A stretch of DNA of 57,120 nucleotides from Bacteriovorax sp. (GTDB taxonomy: Bacteria > Bdellovibrionota > Bacteriovoracia > Bacteriovoracales > Bacteriovoracaceae): the NCBI GenBank assembly GCA_014377485.1, contig JACMPM010000069.1, positions 1-57,120 of the forward strand, read 5' to 3'. Both the position numbers and the translations under genes were made by a program. Positions 30,787 to 38,582 of the stretch are shown one piece after another. The first letter of the stretch is position 1. Every line of letters starts with the position of its first letter. The notes beneath the pieces were generated by a model. The model was not told the DNA's origin, did not search any database, and saw only the letters and a program-made list of their open reading frames with translations.

Positions 30787-30798
30787 TAAAATTTACAT

Positions 30799-30822
30799 CT
30801 TGGGGTTGATGATGACCCCAAG
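30799..30822 (+). terminator. Weak terminator between thrS and ddl
   Basis: CTTGGGGT (30799-30806) and ACCCCAAG (30815-30822) form an 8-bp stem with an 8-base loop, 12 bases past the thrS stop. The T-run after it is short (AAGTTTTC), so some read-through into ddl is likely. Confidence 0.6.
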
Positions 30823-30847
30823 AAGTTTTCATCCAAAGGATTGGTCC

Positions 30848-31843
30848 ATGAAAAAAAATATTCTGCTCCTCTGCGGAGGCGGCGGTTCCGAACACGAAGT
30901 CTCTTTAGTTTCTTCAAAATATATTGAAAAAAATCTTAATGATATTGGACTTTATAACGTCATCAAAGTTGAAATTGGAAAAGATAATATCTTTCGCAAA
31001 TTAAGCAGTGATAATGTTCAGGGCGAAGTTGTTGAAATGAATTTTAAGCGCCAATTAGTTGGCTCTGAAACTGAAGACATACATATTGTCGTTCCCTGTA
31101 TACATGGTCCTCCCGGTGAAACAGGTGAAATTCAAACCTTCTTTGAATTAATTGATCTTCCTTATATCGGATGCGGACCTGAGGCCAGTATCAATTGCTT
31201 TAACAAAGTTACAAGTAAACTGTGGTTTAACGCTCTTGAAATTCCCAATACGCCTTTTGAATTTCTTGCAAGTATGGAAGATAAAAAACGTGCCCACGAC
31301 TTGTTTGATCGTTTTGGAAAAGTTTTTGTAAAAGCAGCTTCACAAGGCTCAAGTATAGGATGTTATCAGATCTTTAAAAAAGATGAACTCGATGATGCTC
31401 TTTTGAAAGCATTTAAATATTCTAGCTATGTTCTGGTTGAAAAAATGGTTGATGCCAGAGAGCTTGAAATTTCTACTTATGAATTCGAAGGGTCTATATA
31501 CGCGACTATACCAGGTGAGATTAATTGCCCAAGTAAGTTTTATTCATACGAAGAAAAATACGATCCAAACAGTAAAACTTCTACCGAGATTGTAGCGCCC
31601 AATTTACCTAAAGAAGCAGTAGAAAAGATGAGAAGCCATGCCATTAAAGCATTTACTCATTTAAAACTTCGCCACTTATCACGAATTGATTTTTTCTATA
31701 CCGTTGAAGGGGAAATATTCTTAAACGAGATCAATACATTTCCAGGCATGACCCCTATATCGATGTTTCCAAAAATGATGGAAAATAACGGGCATTCATT
31801 TAATAAGTTTTTTAAAGAAATTATCGCTAAAAACATTTTATAA
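30848..31843 (+). CDS. ddl: D-alanine--D-alanine ligase family ATP-grasp enzyme
   Basis: The 331-residue product joins two D-alanines for peptidoglycan in known relatives. GGGGSEHEVSLVS holds the first-substrate Glu, CIHGPPGETGEIQ is typical, and the flexible-loop Ser is in KAASQGSSIGC. FYSYEEKY resembles the Tyr loop of Ddl, and FLNEINTFPGMTPISMFP the metal-binding end. AAAGGA precedes the ATG at 30848 and decides the start over an upstream in-frame GTG/ATG series. Only 22 bases separate it from the aminotransferase fusion gene, so it may be co-transcribed with an amino-acid pathway. A different amino-acid ligase activity cannot be excluded. Confidence 0.88.
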   Translation: MKKNILLLCGGGGSEHEVSLVSSKYIEKNLNDIGLYNVIKVEIGKDNIFRKLSSDNVQGEVVEMNFKRQLVGSETEDIHIVVPCIHGPPGETGEIQTFFELIDLPYIGCGPEASINCFNKVTSKLWFNALEIPNTPFEFLASMEDKKRAHDLFDRFGKVFVKAASQGSSIGCYQIFKKDELDDALLKAFKYSSYVLVEKMVDARELEISTYEFEGSIYATIPGEINCPSKFYSYEEKYDPNSKTSTEIVAPNLPKEAVEKMRSHAIKAFTHLKLRHLSRIDFFYTVEGEIFLNEINTFPGMTPISMFPKMMENNGHSFNKFFKEIIAKNIL

Positions 31844-31865: not shown

Positions 31866-34800
31866 ATGTTACTACCAATTATAAACACTGAAGACGCAAA
31901 CCACGGTTCTGAAATTTTAAAGCATTTTTATGCCAATAAAATGATACCCGCAGAAAAGAAAACTTATATGACCAAACTCAAGGACTCTCTTGGTCCTTAT
32001 ATGGGAATAGAAAGCAGCGATGGCAGCACCCATTATCTTTTGGATGCAGCTTCGCAAATTGCAACTTTGGGACACGGATTTAACCCATCTGTCTTTTTTG
32101 GTACAACTGAATTCTTAGAATCCTGGATGAACGATGCCACGACCAAAGAATTTAAAGATATGCGTTTAGCCTTTCAAAATTTTTTCAACCGCAAATTAAA
32201 CTGGAATAAAACATCTATCACTATGGTTCACTCTGGTGCAGAAGCTAATGAAACTGCGTTAGGTTATTGTTATCGATCCAGAGTTAATATTGGGGCCAAT
32301 AAAGTTCTCGCTTTTGAAGGATCTTTTCACGGTCGTATGATGATTACTTTGGCGGCCACATGGAATAAATCGAAGCGAGAACCATTTGAATGGAAAAACT
32401 ATCTCGCTGAGTACGTAAAATACCCTGAGCTAAATGACGGACAAATAAATGTTAGTTTTCCAGATAAATGGAGAGAGACATGGAATGAAGCTTCGCTTAA
32501 AGATTTTAAAACTCCTGAGAGTTGGTCTAGTGACCCAATGATCACAAAAGAGGTGGAATCACTTCTTAGTGTTCGCAAGCAGCTACTTACTAAAAAAATC
32601 TTTTCAATTTTAATCGAGCCAATGCAATGTGAAGGCGGAGATTGTTATTCTTCTGACCGATTTCATACTGGTTTATTATTAATGGCAAAAACTTTCAAAG
32701 TTCCAGTGATTTACGATGAAGTTCAAACAGGCTTTCATTTAGGTAAAGAATTTTTCTGGCATCGCCAATTCAATCTACGAGGCATTAAAGGTCAACAGCT
32801 TAATCCAGACTATGTTATTTGTGCAAAAAAGGCCCAAATAGGAATTGTCTTAAGCCATCGTGAAACTAAAAATATTTTTAAAGGTGAGGAGTTCTCTGTT
32901 GCTTCAGCTTTCCGTGGCTATGCACATGCAATTAGCCTCGACCAGTGCCAGTCTCGCATTATTGAGTTAGAAAAGATTGTCATTCCAAAATTAAATGCTC
33001 TGCTAAAAAAGCATGATAAATTTATTTCACGTCCGCGTGTTAACGGTCTAGCATTTGCTTTTGACTTACATGACCCTGCTATGCTCAATAAGTTTGTCGA
33101 TATTCGTTTTAAACACGGGCTCCTCTACTACCCAGCGGGAAGCCAGACTCTTCGCTTTAGATTAAATCTCGCTTTTGGCGAAAAGGACTTAAACTTTTTA
33201 TTTGAAAGATTAGATTTTATTTGCCGTGAACTATTCTTAAACGAAGTTCACCCAATACCAACTCATGTGGAAACTGATTGTATTGATTCTAATGAATCTT
33301 ATGAATGGCATGAATTGCTGATTACCACTAAACTTGAAAAACTTTTGGGTAAAAAAATTAACAGTAAGCAAGTTTTTGAAAAAATCGAAAAACTAATTAC
33401 CAGTAAAACAGCTACTCAATTAATAGAAATTACTGCCGATAATTTTTTAACTTATCGCCAGGACATAATCAATTTAGAGAGAAAAGTTTATGAACCGGCC
33501 AGACAGACCGATATCGAAAAATTTGAACACACGGTTCTTAATCGCAATTCATTATGCTTAGGAATTATCAACAATAGCGATAAAAAATTAATGGGTATTG
33601 CTTTTGCTGGTCCATTAAAACTTTATCCGCTTGAGCGCGGCGTTCGCATGGATCCTAATTTTCATGAAGAAGATTCTCTCTATATGCTGGATGTAACTGT
33701 CGATCCAGCACTTCAAGGAGAAGGCTTAGGCAGAGGTTTAAAATACGCTCTTTCGGCCATGGCCCTCACTAAAGGAATTAAGCGAATCCAAGGACGCAAT
33801 CGCGACCGACTGGCTGCTGCTATGATCAATATTAATATGTCGTTGGGGGCAATCGAACAGGAATATATCCATGAAGATTATCCTGATTTTGAAACTCATC
33901 GAGATGTTTTTTATTATACAACCAAGGCCGAATGGAAAAAACCAAATATTCATTTGTCCCGGGCGATATCGATTCCACTTTCGGTGAGAAGTTTAAGCAA
34001 AGAATATTTTGACCATCAAATGCCTTTTGCTGTTAATAAAGTTTGTCTTTCAAATTTTGTCAGCGAAACATTCTTAAAAGGAATTAAAGAAGTTATTAAT
34101 CTTCTCCCTGAAAATCTTCGTCATGGTTACACTTGCTCCGGCCAATCTGAGTGCGTGGATAAAGTTGCAAAAACTATCTGGGTGAAGTCCCGTCCTGAAA
34201 TTAAAGAGAATCACATTACGAAAATGATGACTTTCAAAAATCATTATTTTGGTAATGGTTCTGCCTTGTCTCGATCCTTAAGCCTGGATGTTGAACCTTA
34301 TTTTGAAGTGACGAAACTTCCAAATGCCAATGAAATTAACTACCAAAAAGTTTTAGCCGTTGTGGAAAGTGAATTCAAACTAGGAACTTATCTGGCCGTT
34401 TGGGTAGAACCTCTTCTGCAAAAAACCATGGAAAAAATGCCTTACGAATTTTTGCGTGGATTACGCAACCTTGCCACCAAATATAAAGTTGCTCTGGTTT
34501 ATAATGAAACAGCTTCGCAGTTTTTTCGTTTCTCGGAGAAAAACTTTTTCGCTTCGAGCTTTAGTGATATCACGCCAGATGCTGGCCTTGTTTATTTTTC
34601 CGGTCAAGCTGGAATGGCCTTTGCCAGTGATGCCTATTATCTAGAGCAACCATTAATGATGATTAGTACCTGGGATGGAGATGAATTCTCTTTTAATACT
34701 TATTACCATTCATTTAAAGATGTCATTAAAAACCAAGATGATTATAAAAAAACCGCTAAACTTTTCCATCAAAAGTTAATTGATAATCTTTCTCTTTATG

Positions 34801-34946
34801 AAATTGATGTTATGAAAATTGAAAATGGTTTTGGATTCTTTATAGGCTCTATTCCGGCGTCGTTGAGCGAAATGTTTATCCATAATGGGGAACGCTACAC
34901 AGTGTGTCCTTCGTACGATTCGATGAAGGAGTATTTAAACTCATGA
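31866..34946 (+). CDS. Aminotransferase (Lat/GABA-AT type) - GNAT - pseudo-aminotransferase fusion
   Basis: The 1026-residue product has three parts. Residues 1 to about 470 form a class III PLP aminotransferase close to lysine 6-aminotransferase and GABA-AT: FEGSFHGRMMITLAA, IEPMQCEGGDCYSSDRF, IYDEVQTGFHLGK, and the PLP Lys at about 322 in CAKKAQIGIVLS. About 520-690 is a GNAT domain (LDVTVDPALQGEGLGRGLKY, NINMSLGA). About 700-1026 again has class III layout (NHYFGNGSALSRSLS, AVWVEPLLQKTME, ALVYNETASQFFRF) but the PLP Lys is Q914 in YFSGQAGMAF and the Asp is Asn, so it should be inactive. The end overlaps the next gene as ATGA. Confidence 0.88.
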   Translation: MLLPIINTEDANHGSEILKHFYANKMIPAEKKTYMTKLKDSLGPYMGIESSDGSTHYLLDAASQIATLGHGFNPSVFFGTTEFLESWMNDATTKEFKDMRLAFQNFFNRKLNWNKTSITMVHSGAEANETALGYCYRSRVNIGANKVLAFEGSFHGRMMITLAATWNKSKREPFEWKNYLAEYVKYPELNDGQINVSFPDKWRETWNEASLKDFKTPESWSSDPMITKEVESLLSVRKQLLTKKIFSILIEPMQCEGGDCYSSDRFHTGLLLMAKTFKVPVIYDEVQTGFHLGKEFFWHRQFNLRGIKGQQLNPDYVICAKKAQIGIVLSHRETKNIFKGEEFSVASAFRGYAHAISLDQCQSRIIELEKIVIPKLNALLKKHDKFISRPRVNGLAFAFDLHDPAMLNKFVDIRFKHGLLYYPAGSQTLRFRLNLAFGEKDLNFLFERLDFICRELFLNEVHPIPTHVETDCIDSNESYEWHELLITTKLEKLLGKKINSKQVFEKIEKLITSKTATQLIEITADNFLTYRQDIINLERKVYEPARQTDIEKFEHTVLNRNSLCLGIINNSDKKLMGIAFAGPLKLYPLERGVRMDPNFHEEDSLYMLDVTVDPALQGEGLGRGLKYALSAMALTKGIKRIQGRNRDRLAAAMININMSLGAIEQEYIHEDYPDFETHRDVFYYTTKAEWKKPNIHLSRAISIPLSVRSLSKEYFDHQMPFAVNKVCLSNFVSETFLKGIKEVINLLPENLRHGYTCSGQSECVDKVAKTIWVKSRPEIKENHITKMMTFKNHYFGNGSALSRSLSLDVEPYFEVTKLPNANEINYQKVLAVVESEFKLGTYLAVWVEPLLQKTMEKMPYEFLRGLRNLATKYKVALVYNETASQFFRFSEKNFFASSFSDITPDAGLVYFSGQAGMAFASDAYYLEQPLMMISTWDGDEFSFNTYYHSFKDVIKNQDDYKKTAKLFHQKLIDNLSLYEIDVMKIENGFGFFIGSIPASLSEMFIHNGERYTVCPSYDSMKEYLNS

Positions 34947-36040
34947 GTACAAATTGCCAATTCCCTTATATTAAATACCAAACAGGAAAAACTTCAAAAG
35001 AATGGGGATTTTCTCATGGCGAAGAATTTAGAACGGCCATTGCAGAATTGGCCGAAATTCGTCGTGGCTTGATGCTTGCCAAAAACCCTGCTCTTTCTAG
35101 AAAATTAGATGTCCTTGCATTAGAGCAATTAGAGCTTTCGCGTACGTTTGCTCCACATCTAGCACTTGAGATTGAAGGAATCGCAGCAGGTGCTAATCTT
35201 ACGTTAACAGATTTAGTGATCCTAAATAACTATACTGATTTTCGTGATATTAGTTTGCCAGAGGAAGGTTGCTCCACTGTTCATATCCAGACTCCAACTG
35301 AAATTCTCTCGGGTCAAACTTGGGACATGCACCGATCAGCTAAAAACTACATGTGTCTCATTCACGTTCCTCAGACTCAAACGCATACTGCTCAGTTAGT
35401 TTTGACATTAGTAGGATGTGTGGGACTTATGGGTGTTAATACTGACAATGGATTGATTGGAGTGAATAATATAAACACTACAAACGCCAAAACCGGCCTT
35501 ATCTGGCCTGTTCTTGTTCGAAAAACTTTAGAGGCTAAAAACCTTGGGGAGATGCGCACCATCCTTCTCAATGCCCCAGTGACATCGGGACATAATTATC
35601 TAATTAGTACTCCTGAAGGCGGCGAGCACCTAGAAATTACTCCCTCTGTTTCAGAAAAAGTTTCCGCTTTAAATCAAGGCCAGGTTGGTGGAATTTTTCA
35701 TACTAATCATTGTTTGGGTTTTGAAATTGAAAAATTGGAAGATAAAAAATCAATGAGTTCGACAACATTTAATAGATACAAACTACTCTCCAAAAAAACT
35801 CATAAGGTAACAGACCTAATCGACTTTAAAAATCTTCTTACCGATCACGATGATTTTCCTAAATCTATTTGTTCTCACTTTGAAAATGGAGCGCAAGATC
35901 CTTCTTTTACTTGTGGTGGTGGTGTGAGTAATTTAAAAACGGGAACTCATATTTTCTGGCGTGGTTGTCCGGCACATGACAGTGATTATAAAGAATATGA
36001 ATTTTTACTCGATGGACTTGATTTTAAAAAGATTAAATAA
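34943..36040 (+). CDS. C45-family Ntn hydrolase (acyl-CoA:6-APA acyltransferase-like)
   Basis: The 365-residue product starts at the ATG of an ATGA overlap, with AAGGAG 11 bases upstream. It belongs to the penicillin acyltransferase family: self-cleavage before a Cys frees the nucleophile, here C110 in LPEEGCSTVHIQT, followed by ILSGQTWDMHRSAKNY and GLMGVNTDNGLIGVNNINTT. Later SGHNYLISTPEGGEHLEIT and FHTNHCLG are family segments. Members hydrolyse or transfer acyl groups on amines. In this unit it may remove an N-acyl group from a pathway intermediate, the step done by YodQ in Bacillus; that is inference from context. Confidence 0.85.
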   Translation: MSTNCQFPYIKYQTGKTSKEWGFSHGEEFRTAIAELAEIRRGLMLAKNPALSRKLDVLALEQLELSRTFAPHLALEIEGIAAGANLTLTDLVILNNYTDFRDISLPEEGCSTVHIQTPTEILSGQTWDMHRSAKNYMCLIHVPQTQTHTAQLVLTLVGCVGLMGVNTDNGLIGVNNINTTNAKTGLIWPVLVRKTLEAKNLGEMRTILLNAPVTSGHNYLISTPEGGEHLEITPSVSEKVSALNQGQVGGIFHTNHCLGFEIEKLEDKKSMSSTTFNRYKLLSKKTHKVTDLIDFKNLLTDHDDFPKSICSHFENGAQDPSFTCGGGVSNLKTGTHIFWRGCPAHDSDYKEYEFLLDGLDFKKIK

Positions 36041-36054
36041 ATAACGAGATCACA

Positions 36055-37239
36055 ATGAAACTTCCTTACTATATTTCCTGGACCAAGCAAAAAGATGCTG
36101 CAAGCTTTGAAATTGCTAGTGTTGATGGTGTTACAATTACGACTACTGATGGACTACGCCTAATTGATATGACTTCAATCAGCTACCAAGCACATTTTGG
36201 TCATAACCATCCTACTATAATTAAGCATATCAAGGAACAGCTAGATACTATTCCTATGAGCTCACCAAAGGGAATTTATCCGCATAAAAATGAAACTACT
36301 TATAAGCTTCTTCAGTATATGAAAAAAGAAGATGGCAAAATTTTTTATACAACAGGCGGAGCAGAGAGTGTTGAGAACGCTCTCAAAATGGCCAGAGATT
36401 TTACTAAGAAAAAAATAGTTCTCGCACGCTCGAACTCTTATCACGGAGCAACTCTTGGTGCTTTATCGGCAACAGGTGACTGGAGAAATCCAGCCCACAT
36501 GACTCCTGAAGGTTGGGTCGTTAGAATCCCGGAGCCCAACGAAAAGGAAGCCCTCAAAAAAACTCGTGAAATTATTTTACAAACCGGTGCTGAAAATATA
36601 GCGGCCATTATTATTGAAACAATTACAGGTGGAAATGGCGTCTATTCAGGGACAAAGGAATGGTGGCAGGGCCTTAAAAAATTATGTGTCGAATTTAATA
36701 TACTTCTAATAATGGACGAAGTTGTTTGTGGTTTTGAGCGAACCGGACTTTCATTCGGATATATGCATTATGATGTTGAACCAGACCTCATTTGTCTTGC
36801 CAAAGGAATTACTGGTGGAATGATTCCATTTGGAGCTGTTTGGACTTCAAAAAAAATTGCTGATTATTACGAAGATAATATTTTGTGCTGTGGCCTGACA
36901 AATTACGCTCATCCGCTAGGCATGGCCGCCATGAGAGGAGTTCTTGAGATAGTTCATGATAAAAAATTTCAAGAAAATTTAAAGCACGTAGAAAATATTT
37001 TTAAAATAGAGCTTGAAAAATTAAAAAGTCTCTCAATTGTTAAAGAAATCAGAGTTCATGGTCTTCTTTGTGCAATTGATCTCAAAAAGACGATTGATGG
37101 AAAGAAATTTTTCCAAAAAGGTATTTATCTTGTGTCCCAAACGAATCGAATTATTCTAGTACCTCCACTCGTCATAACGGAATCCCTTCTAACAGAAGGA
37201 ATGGGCAAGGTCTACGAAGTTCTAGAGGAAAACCTATGA
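36055..37239 (+). CDS. Class III aminotransferase, YodT-like
   Basis: The 394-residue product is a complete PLP-dependent class III aminotransferase: FYTTGGAESVENALKMARDF, NSYHGATLGALSATGDWR, IIIETITGGNGVY, IMDEVVCGFERTG, and the PLP Lys in LICLAKGITGGMIPFGAV. The position next to CoA-transferase subunits and the GNAT-containing fusion is that of YodT in the Bacillus yod cluster. The substrate is not known; an omega-amino or beta-amino acid such as N-acetyl-beta-lysine is likely. The stop overlaps the next start as ATGA. Confidence 0.88.
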   Translation: MKLPYYISWTKQKDAASFEIASVDGVTITTTDGLRLIDMTSISYQAHFGHNHPTIIKHIKEQLDTIPMSSPKGIYPHKNETTYKLLQYMKKEDGKIFYTTGGAESVENALKMARDFTKKKIVLARSNSYHGATLGALSATGDWRNPAHMTPEGWVVRIPEPNEKEALKKTREIILQTGAENIAAIIIETITGGNGVYSGTKEWWQGLKKLCVEFNILLIMDEVVCGFERTGLSFGYMHYDVEPDLICLAKGITGGMIPFGAVWTSKKIADYYEDNILCCGLTNYAHPLGMAAMRGVLEIVHDKKFQENLKHVENIFKIELEKLKSLSIVKEIRVHGLLCAIDLKKTIDGKKFFQKGIYLVSQTNRIILVPPLVITESLLTEGMGKVYEVLEENL

Positions 37240-37940
37240 ACAATAAAAATTCAAAAGTTTTTAAAGATGCAGTAAGTGCTCTTTTCGACTTTCAATCAGG
37301 CATGACACTTATGAGCGGAGGCTTCGGACTCTGCGGTATTGCAGAAAATTGTATCGATGCGCTCGCAAATATGAATGTATCTGACCTGACTGTGATTTCG
37401 AATAATATTGGAAATTCAGGAAGAGGTTTAGTTAAAATCTTGGTTCAAGATAAAATTAAAAAAGCTTATTGCTCTTATGTCGGAGGAAATCCCGATCTAG
37501 AAGTGCGCATGCTTAACAAACAAATAGAAGTTGAACTAGTTCCTCAAGGAACCTTTTCAGAGCGCATTCGTGCAGCTGGAATGGGTATCCGTGCTTTTTA
37601 TACTCCTACCGGTTATGGGACTTTAATAGCCGAAGGCAAAGAAGTTAAAATTTTTGATCGCCCTTGCATTATGGAAACGGCCTTACATGCTGATTTTGCC
37701 ATCATCAAAGCTCAGCGCGGAGACACTTTTGGCAATCTATGGTTTAAAGAAACGGCCAGAAATTTTTCTCCACTGATGGCAATGGCCGCTAAAACTACGA
37801 TTGTTGAAGTAGAAGAACTTGTTGAAGTGGGAGAAATTGATCCGCATGATATTCATCTTCCTGGTTTATTCGTACAACGAATTTTTCTTGGAAAAAATTA
37901 TAAAAATGAAATTGAATTTTTAATTACCGAAAAAGAATAA
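37236..37940 (+). CDS. 3-oxoacid CoA-transferase subunit A
   Basis: The 234-residue product is the alpha subunit of a two-subunit family I CoA-transferase: MSGGFGLCGIAENCIDAL, VISNNIGNSGRGLVKIL, YVGGNPDLEVRML, LVPQGTFSERIRAAGMG and TPTGYGTLIAEGKE. It pairs with the next gene to move CoA between acyl-CoA and 3-oxo acids. It starts by a 4-base overlap with the aminotransferase gene and ends 18 bases before subunit B. It corresponds to YodS/ScoA/AtoD types; the exact substrate is not visible. Confidence 0.92.
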   Translation: MNNKNSKVFKDAVSALFDFQSGMTLMSGGFGLCGIAENCIDALANMNVSDLTVISNNIGNSGRGLVKILVQDKIKKAYCSYVGGNPDLEVRMLNKQIEVELVPQGTFSERIRAAGMGIRAFYTPTGYGTLIAEGKEVKIFDRPCIMETALHADFAIIKAQRGDTFGNLWFKETARNFSPLMAMAAKTTIVEVEELVEVGEIDPHDIHLPGLFVQRIFLGKNYKNEIEFLITEKE

Positions 37941-37958
37941 AAACGATAAGGATTTAAT

Positions 37959-38582
37959 ATGGCCTGGACTAATATTGAAATGGCAGATGAAATTATATTA
38001 TTTTTCAAACCATATTCATCAGTAAATCTTGGAATTGGAATGCCCACTGCAATCGCAGAACGAATTCCACATGAACTCAATATCATGATTCATTCAGAAA
38101 ATGGAGTCCTTGGAGTAAGTGGCAGACCTAAAAAGGATTCTGCCTCACCTACCCTCATCAATGCTGGAAAAGAAACAATAGCTATTAAAAAAGGCGCTAG
38201 TTATTTTGATAGTTCAATGAGTTTTGGAATGATTCGTGGCGGACATATTGATTATTGTGTCCTGGGTGGAATGGAAGTAGATGTATCGAGAAATCTTGCT
38301 AACTGGATGGTTCCTGGTAAAAAAGTTACAGGGATGGGCGGGGCAATGGATCTGGTCAATGGATCCAAACAAGTCATCATTATGATGAATCATTTCTCAA
38401 AGGATGGAGTCTCTAAACTTCTTCCTCAATGCCTTTTGCCTTTTACCGGCCTTGATGTCGTTGATATTGTAGTGACAGAGTTGGGAGTTTTTAAACCTAC
38501 CGGTACCAAATTTGAAATAATAAAACTGGCCCATGGTGTAGCAGTTGAAGATCTAAAAATGGATAAAACTATCCTCAACTAA
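37959..38582 (+). CDS. 3-oxoacid CoA-transferase subunit B
   Basis: The 207-residue product is the beta subunit with the catalytic Glu E47 in IHSENGVLGVSG, after VNLGIGMPTAIAERIP. Later parts are SFGMIRGGHIDYCVLGGMEVD, MVPGKKVTGMGGAMDLVNG and VVTELGVFKP. It forms a covalent glutamyl-CoA intermediate in known relatives. AAGGA before the ATG supports the start. It is the last gene of the unit; no terminator is visible in the 89-base gap before the protease gene. Confidence 0.92.
   Translation: MAWTNIEMADEIILFFKPYSSVNLGIGMPTAIAERIPHELNIMIHSENGVLGVSGRPKKDSASPTLINAGKETIAIKKGASYFDSSMSFGMIRGGHIDYCVLGGMEVDVSRNLANWMVPGKKVTGMGGAMDLVNGSKQVIIMMNHFSKDGVSKLLPQCLLPFTGLDVVDIVVTELGVFKPTGTKFEIIKLAHGVAVEDLKMDKTILN

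Follow-up and report, generated by a model that had tools for sequence, protein, structure and literature searches.

In the window (the whole stretch of DNA analysed, 57,120 nucleotides), positions 31866-38582 carry five packed genes on the plus strand, encoding a three-part fusion protein, a C45 Ntn hydrolase, a class III aminotransferase and the two subunits of a CoA-transferase. The features at the locus are as follows.

30798-30823: 11-bp hairpin between thrS and ddl
30848..31843, + strand: ddl, D-alanine--D-alanine ligase (better start, ATG at 30848)
31866..34946, + strand: fusion protein AT1 - GNAT - AT2', 1026 aa (profile matches, homologue alignment)
31866..33230, + strand: AT1, residues 1-455, class III aminotransferase of the LAT/GABA-AT type (profiles, 22-homologue alignment)
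33411..33935, + strand: GNAT domain, residues ~516-690 (PF00583, fold matches of the model)
33966..34946, + strand: AT2', residues ~701-1026, degenerate class III aminotransferase domain (profiles, alignment)
34943..36040, + strand: C45 Ntn hydrolase, 365 aa, starting at the ATG of an ATGA overlap (AAT/C45_proenzyme, alignment)
36055..37239, + strand: class III aminotransferase, 394 aa (Aminotran_3, 1e-79)
37236..37940, + strand: 3-oxoacid CoA-transferase subunit A (TIGR02429, 245 bits, cut-off 128.5)
37959..38582, + strand: 3-oxoacid CoA-transferase subunit B (TIGR02428, 253 bits, cut-off 243.6)

Operon layout and conservation

The five-gene packed unit described in an earlier, sequence-only reading of this DNA was borne out, its coordinates and strand agreeing with the open reading frames and with the Pfam and NCBIfam domain matches. 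The ATGA overlaps described there are present at two of the four junctions, between the fusion and C45 genes (34943-34946) and between the aminotransferase and CoA-transferase A genes (37236-37239), and absent from the other two, which are gaps of 14 and 18 bp. The ddl stop lies 22 bp upstream of the fusion, so the packed run includes ddl, which is probably co-transcribed with the operon and is not judged a member of the pathway. The order thrS-ddl-fusion-C45-aminotransferase-CoA-A-CoA-B is kept throughout the family; in other families thrS and ddl do not adjoin the fusion, and for this reason, together with the hairpin that follows thrS, both were rejected as pathway genes.

All five operon genes are conserved among Bacteriovorax-type bacteria, in about ten genera of the family, at 39-95% identity to those of the window, and because of this conservation the gene set is not a chance assembly. 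The fusion and C45, an acylating and an amide-cleaving enzyme, stay together in all families. In a distant relative from another family (G040), the fusion-C45 pair is accompanied by a divergent CoA-transferase pair, an aminotransferase and a thiolase. The genes downstream of C45 in G324 encode MutL and tRNA IPP-transferase and were set aside as housekeeping. No published description of the five-gene set or of the fusion was found in the literature searched.

The C45 protein matches the AAT/C45_proenzyme profile at 141.5 bits (cut-off 85), and its Gly-Cys autocleavage site, Cys110, is kept in 18 of 18 aligned homologues. Its closest solved relative is the Penicillium acyl-CoA:6-APA acyltransferase (PDB 2X1D), with which it shares near full-length similarity (1e-19) and the autocleavage site; unlike the Penicillium enzyme, it is bacterial and belongs to a catabolic operon, with 4-acetamidobutyrate as its proposed substrate. 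The closest solved relative of the 394-aa aminotransferase is taurine:2-oxoglutarate aminotransferase.

The three-part fusion protein

The first gene had been read as an aminotransferase-GNAT fusion, and both of these domains are present, but the protein is not bipartite: a degenerate second aminotransferase domain, at residues ~700-1026, had been overlooked. The fusion matches Aminotran_3 (9e-37, Pfam). In the first domain, AT1, the PLP lysine K321 is invariant among 22 homologues, as are E256, D284, E285, R157, R430 and R432. Profile comparison places lysine 6-aminotransferase (LAT, PDB 2CIN) nearest among solved structures, at 128 bits versus 112 for GABA aminotransferase, and AT1 shares with LAT and with the mitochondrial GABA aminotransferase the EGGD, DEVQTG and KKxQ motifs and the substrate arginines. 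The earlier description of this domain as lysine 6-aminotransferase-like thus holds as far as the nearest solved relative is concerned, but not at the level of the family, since AT1 scores 79.3 bits against the L-lysine 6-transaminase profile TIGR03251, far below its cut-off of 520.8. AT1 also departs from both enzymes in being fused and in lacking a conserved PLP-phosphate threonine.

The GNAT part is a weak but genuine match, by sequence and by model. Taken alone, the segment scores 22.8 bits against PF00583, barely above the gathering score of 20.7, and the best PDB fold matches of its model (mean pLDDT 71) are GNAT folds of a generic kind, silent on the substrate. The acetyl-CoA loop is of the Q/R-x-x-G-x-G/A type, and the RN pair at 644-645 is invariant. 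No NCBIfam family, including AblB/YodP (TIGR03827), was matched by this segment.

AT2' has Q or H in place of the PLP lysine, while its S-T-W-D-G-D stretch at 934-939 is invariant. The PLP lysine is therefore conserved in AT1 only and the phosphate threonine in AT2' only, so that neither repeat has both, and this complementary loss of catalytic residues leads to the prediction of one composite active site. From these residue patterns, AT1 and AT2' probably pair as a class III-like pseudo-dimer: they would take the places of the two monomers in a normal class III dimer, with one active site per chain, to which AT1 would contribute the PLP lysine together with the substrate arginines, and AT2' the threonine that reaches the PLP phosphate across the interface. 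An AlphaFold model of the whole fusion, computed with nine close relatives in the alignment, reached a pLDDT of 48, too poor for the AT1-AT2' interface. If the prediction is true, the fusion is out of the ordinary among PLP enzymes: a pseudo-dimer within one chain, whose two halves complement each other's lost catalytic residues.

KamA in the host genome and across the phylum

The sequence-only reading had linked the operon to lysine or beta-lysine and had proposed a search of the genome for lysine 2,3-aminomutase and thiolase genes, both of which are encoded there. The aminomutase, KamA, is a protein of 458 aa that matches lysine 2,3-aminomutase 2A5H at 2.8e-70 and keeps its R134, D293, D330 and K337 (lysine-binding or key residues); against the TIGR03820 equivalog it scores 274 bits, under the cut-off of 525. 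Its gene lies on contig C139 and the operon on C11. A role of this KamA in EF-P beta-lysylation is unlikely, as the genome encodes a separate EpmB-like paralogue. Thiolase and succinate semialdehyde dehydrogenase are each represented by several candidates, none of them diagnostic; the thiolase on C141 was rejected as the partner of the operon, since its neighbours encode enoyl-CoA hydratase and 3-hydroxyacyl-CoA dehydrogenase and it probably serves another pathway. A search of the host genome gave no match to TIGR03827 (AblB/YodP), and 3,5-diaminohexanoate dehydrogenase (KDD, NF052381) is absent from it.

In a survey of 369 genomes of the phylum, with counts that treat genomes as independent of relatedness, the fusion was found in 62 and KDD in 56. 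KamA is encoded in 56 of the 62 fusion genomes, and five of the six without it are 68-88% complete. The fusion and KDD occur together in none of the 369 genomes, whereas KDD is present in 49 KamA genomes that have no fusion. The link to lysine and beta-lysine is thus supported both by KamA in the host genome and by the phyletic and gene-context ties of the fusion to KamA.

The operon might instead act on another substrate, for instance GABA, taurine, a further beta- or omega-amino acid, or lysine itself through LAT chemistry; its link to KamA would then reflect only shared ancestry or ecology. Sequence is a poor guide to the function of an aminotransferase, and the second one here is nearest a taurine aminotransferase; moreover, KamA was not found in one fusion genome that is 90% complete (G054), and only about three label changes are needed on the KamA tree, that is, few independent gains and losses. 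The exclusion with KDD among KamA genomes, however, and the pairing of the fusion with two distant KamA clades in the same tree argue against this explanation, and the combination of GNAT, amidase and 3-oxoacid CoA-transferase misfits simple LAT, GABA or taurine routes, which makes it quite unlikely.

Acetylation of beta-lysine by AblA/AblB is known from osmoprotection, and in principle the fusion could serve to make an osmolyte, N-acetyl-beta-lysine or a compound derived from it, rather than to break beta-lysine down. The two systems share KamA and an acetyltransferase, and all 13 genomes with AblB above the cut-off also have KamA. AblB, however, is a separate family that occurs on its own in some relatives; the AblB genes examined stand apart from the fusion operon, the host genome has the operon without an AblB match, and a catabolic role suits the CoA-transferase, the amidase and the aminotransferases. 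The osmolyte explanation is accordingly considered highly improbable. Eight genomes encode a true AblB alongside the fusion, and in these AblB could perform the acetylation.

A proposed route for beta-lysine breakdown

On balance, the operon is probably the downstream half of a catabolic route from lysine through beta-lysine, with substrates, step order and domain packing as we infer them. Catabolism of beta-lysine is the well-supported part of this reading; an acetylated, yod-like order of steps is plausible. KamA, encoded on another contig, would convert lysine to beta-lysine (3,6-diaminohexanoate), the 6-amino group of which would be capped by the GNAT domain. A transaminase would then take off the 3-amino group, leaving the 3-oxo acid 3-oxo-6-acetamidohexanoate, which the 3-oxoacid CoA-transferase would activate and a thiolase encoded elsewhere would cleave into acetyl-CoA and 4-acetamidobutyryl-CoA. 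After release of CoA, the C45 hydrolase would remove the acetyl cap to yield 4-aminobutyrate, and the other aminotransferase would convert this to succinate semialdehyde. Each enzyme class of the chain is encoded in the genome, and the CoA-transferase is of the 3-oxoacid type. Because of the LAT/GABA-AT character of AT1, its sequence suggests a role on the terminal amine, with the 394-aa taurine-type enzyme acting on the 3-amine; the reverse assignment is possible.

Beta-lysine could also be broken down without this acetyl-capped order if the GNAT domain used another acyl group or amine, if C45 were an acyltransferase, or if AT1 acted on beta-lysine in the way LAT acts on lysine, taking off its 6-amino group. 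The proximity of AT1 to LAT, the acyltransferase as closest solved relative of C45, and a GNAT domain that is not AblB, with true AblB beside the fusion in some genomes, are all consistent with such a scheme. A 3-oxo intermediate, by contrast, fits the 3-oxoacid CoA-transferase pair and the thiolase beside the fusion in G040, and the constant association of acylating and amide-cleaving enzymes fits capping and uncapping; the uncapped variant is therefore regarded as unlikely.

The comparison system for the acetyl-capped order is the yodT-S-R-Q-P-kamA gene set of Bacillus subtilis. Both systems cluster the gene for a class III aminotransferase with those for the CoA-transferase subunits A and B, and both include an acetyltransferase, an amide-cleaving enzyme and a KamA encoded in the genome. 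The operon had been proposed as a variant of this set, but it is distinct from the yod system proper: its GNAT, which lacks a TIGR03827 match and is thus not AblB/YodP, sits fused between two aminotransferase domains; its amidase is a C45 Ntn enzyme from another family, with no YodQ-type deacylase in the operon; kamA lies far away, outside the operon; and there is one extra aminotransferase.

The lysine fermentation pathway comprises KamA, KamDE, KDD, Kce, and Kal or Kat (PMC3149608). The proposed route shares with it the opening step, in which a KamA from the same clade turns lysine into beta-lysine, but none of the 62 fusion genomes has KDD, the fusion operon standing in its place. KamA relatives at 62-68% identity sit in a canonical lysine fermentation cluster of this kind, with KDD and a MutS-like gene and, in G092, also lysine 5,6-aminomutase. 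Within the phylum the two exits from beta-lysine exclude one another, and this holds even for relatives that share one KamA type, so that the partner genes of a KamA indicate its role.

More tentatively, at somewhat short of an even chance, the fusion may be one protein with three functions and an aminotransferase site divided between two domains (the lysine in one domain, the phosphate threonine in its dead twin and the GNAT between them). It would perform both acetylation and transamination of beta-lysine, and together with C45 it would form a previously undescribed lysine module that, in this phylum, replaces the fermentation genes acting after a shared KamA. Known predators belong to the family, and little is known about their use of amino acids from prey; the operon gives this family a specific set of candidate lysine-degradation genes that can be put to the test. 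Lysine from prey had been suggested in the earlier reading as a useful carbon source. KamA relatives of 31-35% identity are present in other families (f6 and f11).

Operon layout and the fused aminotransferase

The sequence-only reading placed five packed genes at 31866-38582, and all five ORFs are present there on the + strand. The first (the fusion, 1026 aa) and third (AT, 394 aa) match class III aminotransferases, the second is a C45 Ntn hydrolase proenzyme, and the last two are 3-oxoacid CoA-transferase A and then B (Pfam, NCBIfam). The ATGA overlaps described between these packed genes occur at two of the four junctions, the other two having gaps of 14 and 18 bp; the C45 start is best placed at ATGA, 34943, yielding 365 aa. 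The packed run extends 5' into ddl, the D-alanine--D-alanine ligase gene. A strong 11-bp GC-rich hairpin (30798-30823), terminator-like in both directions, lies between thrS and ddl. Because the ORF-finder start of ddl (TTG 30800) sits within this hairpin 3' of thrS, ATG 30848 is probably the true start.

The fusion is built of three parts:

aa 1-455, + strand: AT1, class III aminotransferase
aa ~516-690, + strand: GNAT, usual acetyl-CoA loop present
aa ~701-1026, + strand: AT2', second class III aminotransferase domain

AT1 had been described as resembling lysine 6-aminotransferase (LAT), which is indeed its nearest solved relative by profile (128 bits, followed by mitochondrial GABA aminotransferase at 112 bits), but by curated score it is not LAT. 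The predicted model of the GNAT part (pLDDT 71) matches GNATs; that of the full-length fusion is of poor quality. AT2' matches many solved aminotransferases by profile (best 6e-9), and bioA-type models as well.

Residue conservation was read from 22 fusion homologues of several families. In AT1, the PLP lysine K321, D284, E285, E256, R157, R430 and R432 are invariant in all 22, and the column corresponding to T330 of LAT, the threonine that extends over the dimer interface to the PLP phosphate of the other subunit, is variable (A, T, V, I, F, M or L). AT2' carries Q or H in the position of the PLP lysine and mostly NET in place of DEV; its S-T-W-D-G-D, the counterpart in the alignment of STFGG in acetylornithine aminotransferase, is kept in 22/22. 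Such complementary loss is the pattern expected of an internal pseudo-dimer, and we infer that AT1 and AT2' form one with a single active site.

Proposed pathway and relation to known systems

Judged from sequence, the GNAT, an aminotransferase, the 3-oxoacid CoA-transferase, a thiolase, an amide hydrolase and a second aminotransferase fit one chain. The GNAT would cap the 6-amine, transamination would convert C3 to a ketone, the CoA-transferase would activate the product to a CoA ester, thiolase would cleave it, the C45 enzyme, whose Gly-Cys cleavage site is conserved, would uncap as an amidase, and GABA would be transaminated. Either aminotransferase may take the 3-amine: the GABA-AT/LAT character of AT1 argues for action on a terminal amine, and the taurine-type relatives of the 394-aa AT argue for action on a beta-amine. 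The same logic is ascribed to the Bacillus yod genes. The proposal of a beta-lysine route varying on yod is partly supported, and its kamA prediction holds. By membership the operon is not a yod operon: here the GNAT lacks a TIGR03827 match, the hydrolase is of a different family, and kamA lies outside the operon. The route also differs from lysine fermentation via 3,5-diaminohexanoate dehydrogenase (KDD), which is absent from the genome. The operon appears to be a variant of a known pathway type, with an unusual fused enzyme.

Probable lysine 2,3-aminomutase and its partners

As predicted, the genome contains kamA; it encodes two KamA-family proteins, one of them EpmB-like. The other (458 aa, contig C139) aligns to the lysine 2,3-aminomutase structure 2A5H at 2.8e-70 and keeps all four ligand-holding residues: R134 for the carboxylate of lysine, D293 and D330 for its side-chain amine, and K337 for PLP. 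It probably acts on lysine, since close relatives (62-68% identical) in G031, G091 and G092 sit in fermentation-type clusters, divergently oriented beside KDD. These add one unnamed gene and a third gene, MutS-like in G031, resembling lysine fermentation clusters, among whose members are one hypothetical and one mutS-family gene (PMC3149608); G092 additionally has lysine 5,6-aminomutase alpha (765 bits). In the fermentation-type cluster of G031, a ketol-acid reductoisomerase-like protein (L077:7698-8648, -; 176 bits, below the cut-off of 226) adjoins kamA; a second KamA (51% identical; contig C83, L134) and a second, weaker KDD-like gene occur in the same genome.

In an initial sample of 57 relatives, all Bacteriovoracaceae genomes with the fusion have the 458-aa KamA type at >=67% identity. 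In a phylum census of 369 genomes (KamA at >=183 bits), 62 contain the fusion, 56 contain KDD and none contains both. KamA is present in 56/62 fusion genomes, the exceptions being five assemblies 68-88% complete and G054 (90%), the sole well-assembled one. KamA genomes comprise 56 with the fusion, 49 with KDD, none with both and 25 with neither, many of the last in family f12; families f6 and f11 have weaker KamA relatives (31-35% identity). Six genomes have the Bacteriovoracaceae KamA type without the fusion: four have KDD and two are incomplete (84%, 56%). Fisher's test gives ~1e-23 for the co-occurrence of fusion and KamA and ~1e-17 for the exclusion; both values take every genome as an independent case and are overoptimistic. 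The KamA tree requires about three changes for each label (bootstrap 2-4); one clade holds KDD-linked and fusion-linked KamAs together, and the fusion pairs also with a second, distant clade.

AblB, the beta-lysine acetyltransferase, is confined above cut-off to KamA genomes (13/13), a further indication that KamA makes beta-lysine. Eight genomes carry true AblB alongside the fusion, at a site away from the operon in the ones inspected. The GNAT of the fusion may therefore serve a different purpose in these genomes, which is the chief weakness in assigning it the acetyl cap. Stand-alone osmolyte-type AblB genes in fusion-positive relatives (L117, L118, L119, L121) adjoin neither kamA nor the operon; kamA and AblB are adjacent in G309 (L120).

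Gene order

The nearest relatives are metagenome-assembled genomes of Bacteriovorax and Bacteriovoracaceae, and the order thrS-ddl-fusion-C45-AT-CoA-A-CoA-B is constant in about ten Bacteriovoracaceae genera, where contigs permit a view. Beyond this family, only the fusion-C45 pair remains linked (G040, G054, G324, G325). On the flanks of the pair in G040 (L069) lie CoA-transferase A and B genes and a class III aminotransferase gene, all of them divergent (27% identity for the aminotransferase), together with a thiolase gene. These supply the same functions from other subfamilies, plus the thiolase required by the proposed pathway. In G054, a DAP-epimerase-like gene (L070:11951-12727, -) lies directly upstream of the fusion on the same strand.
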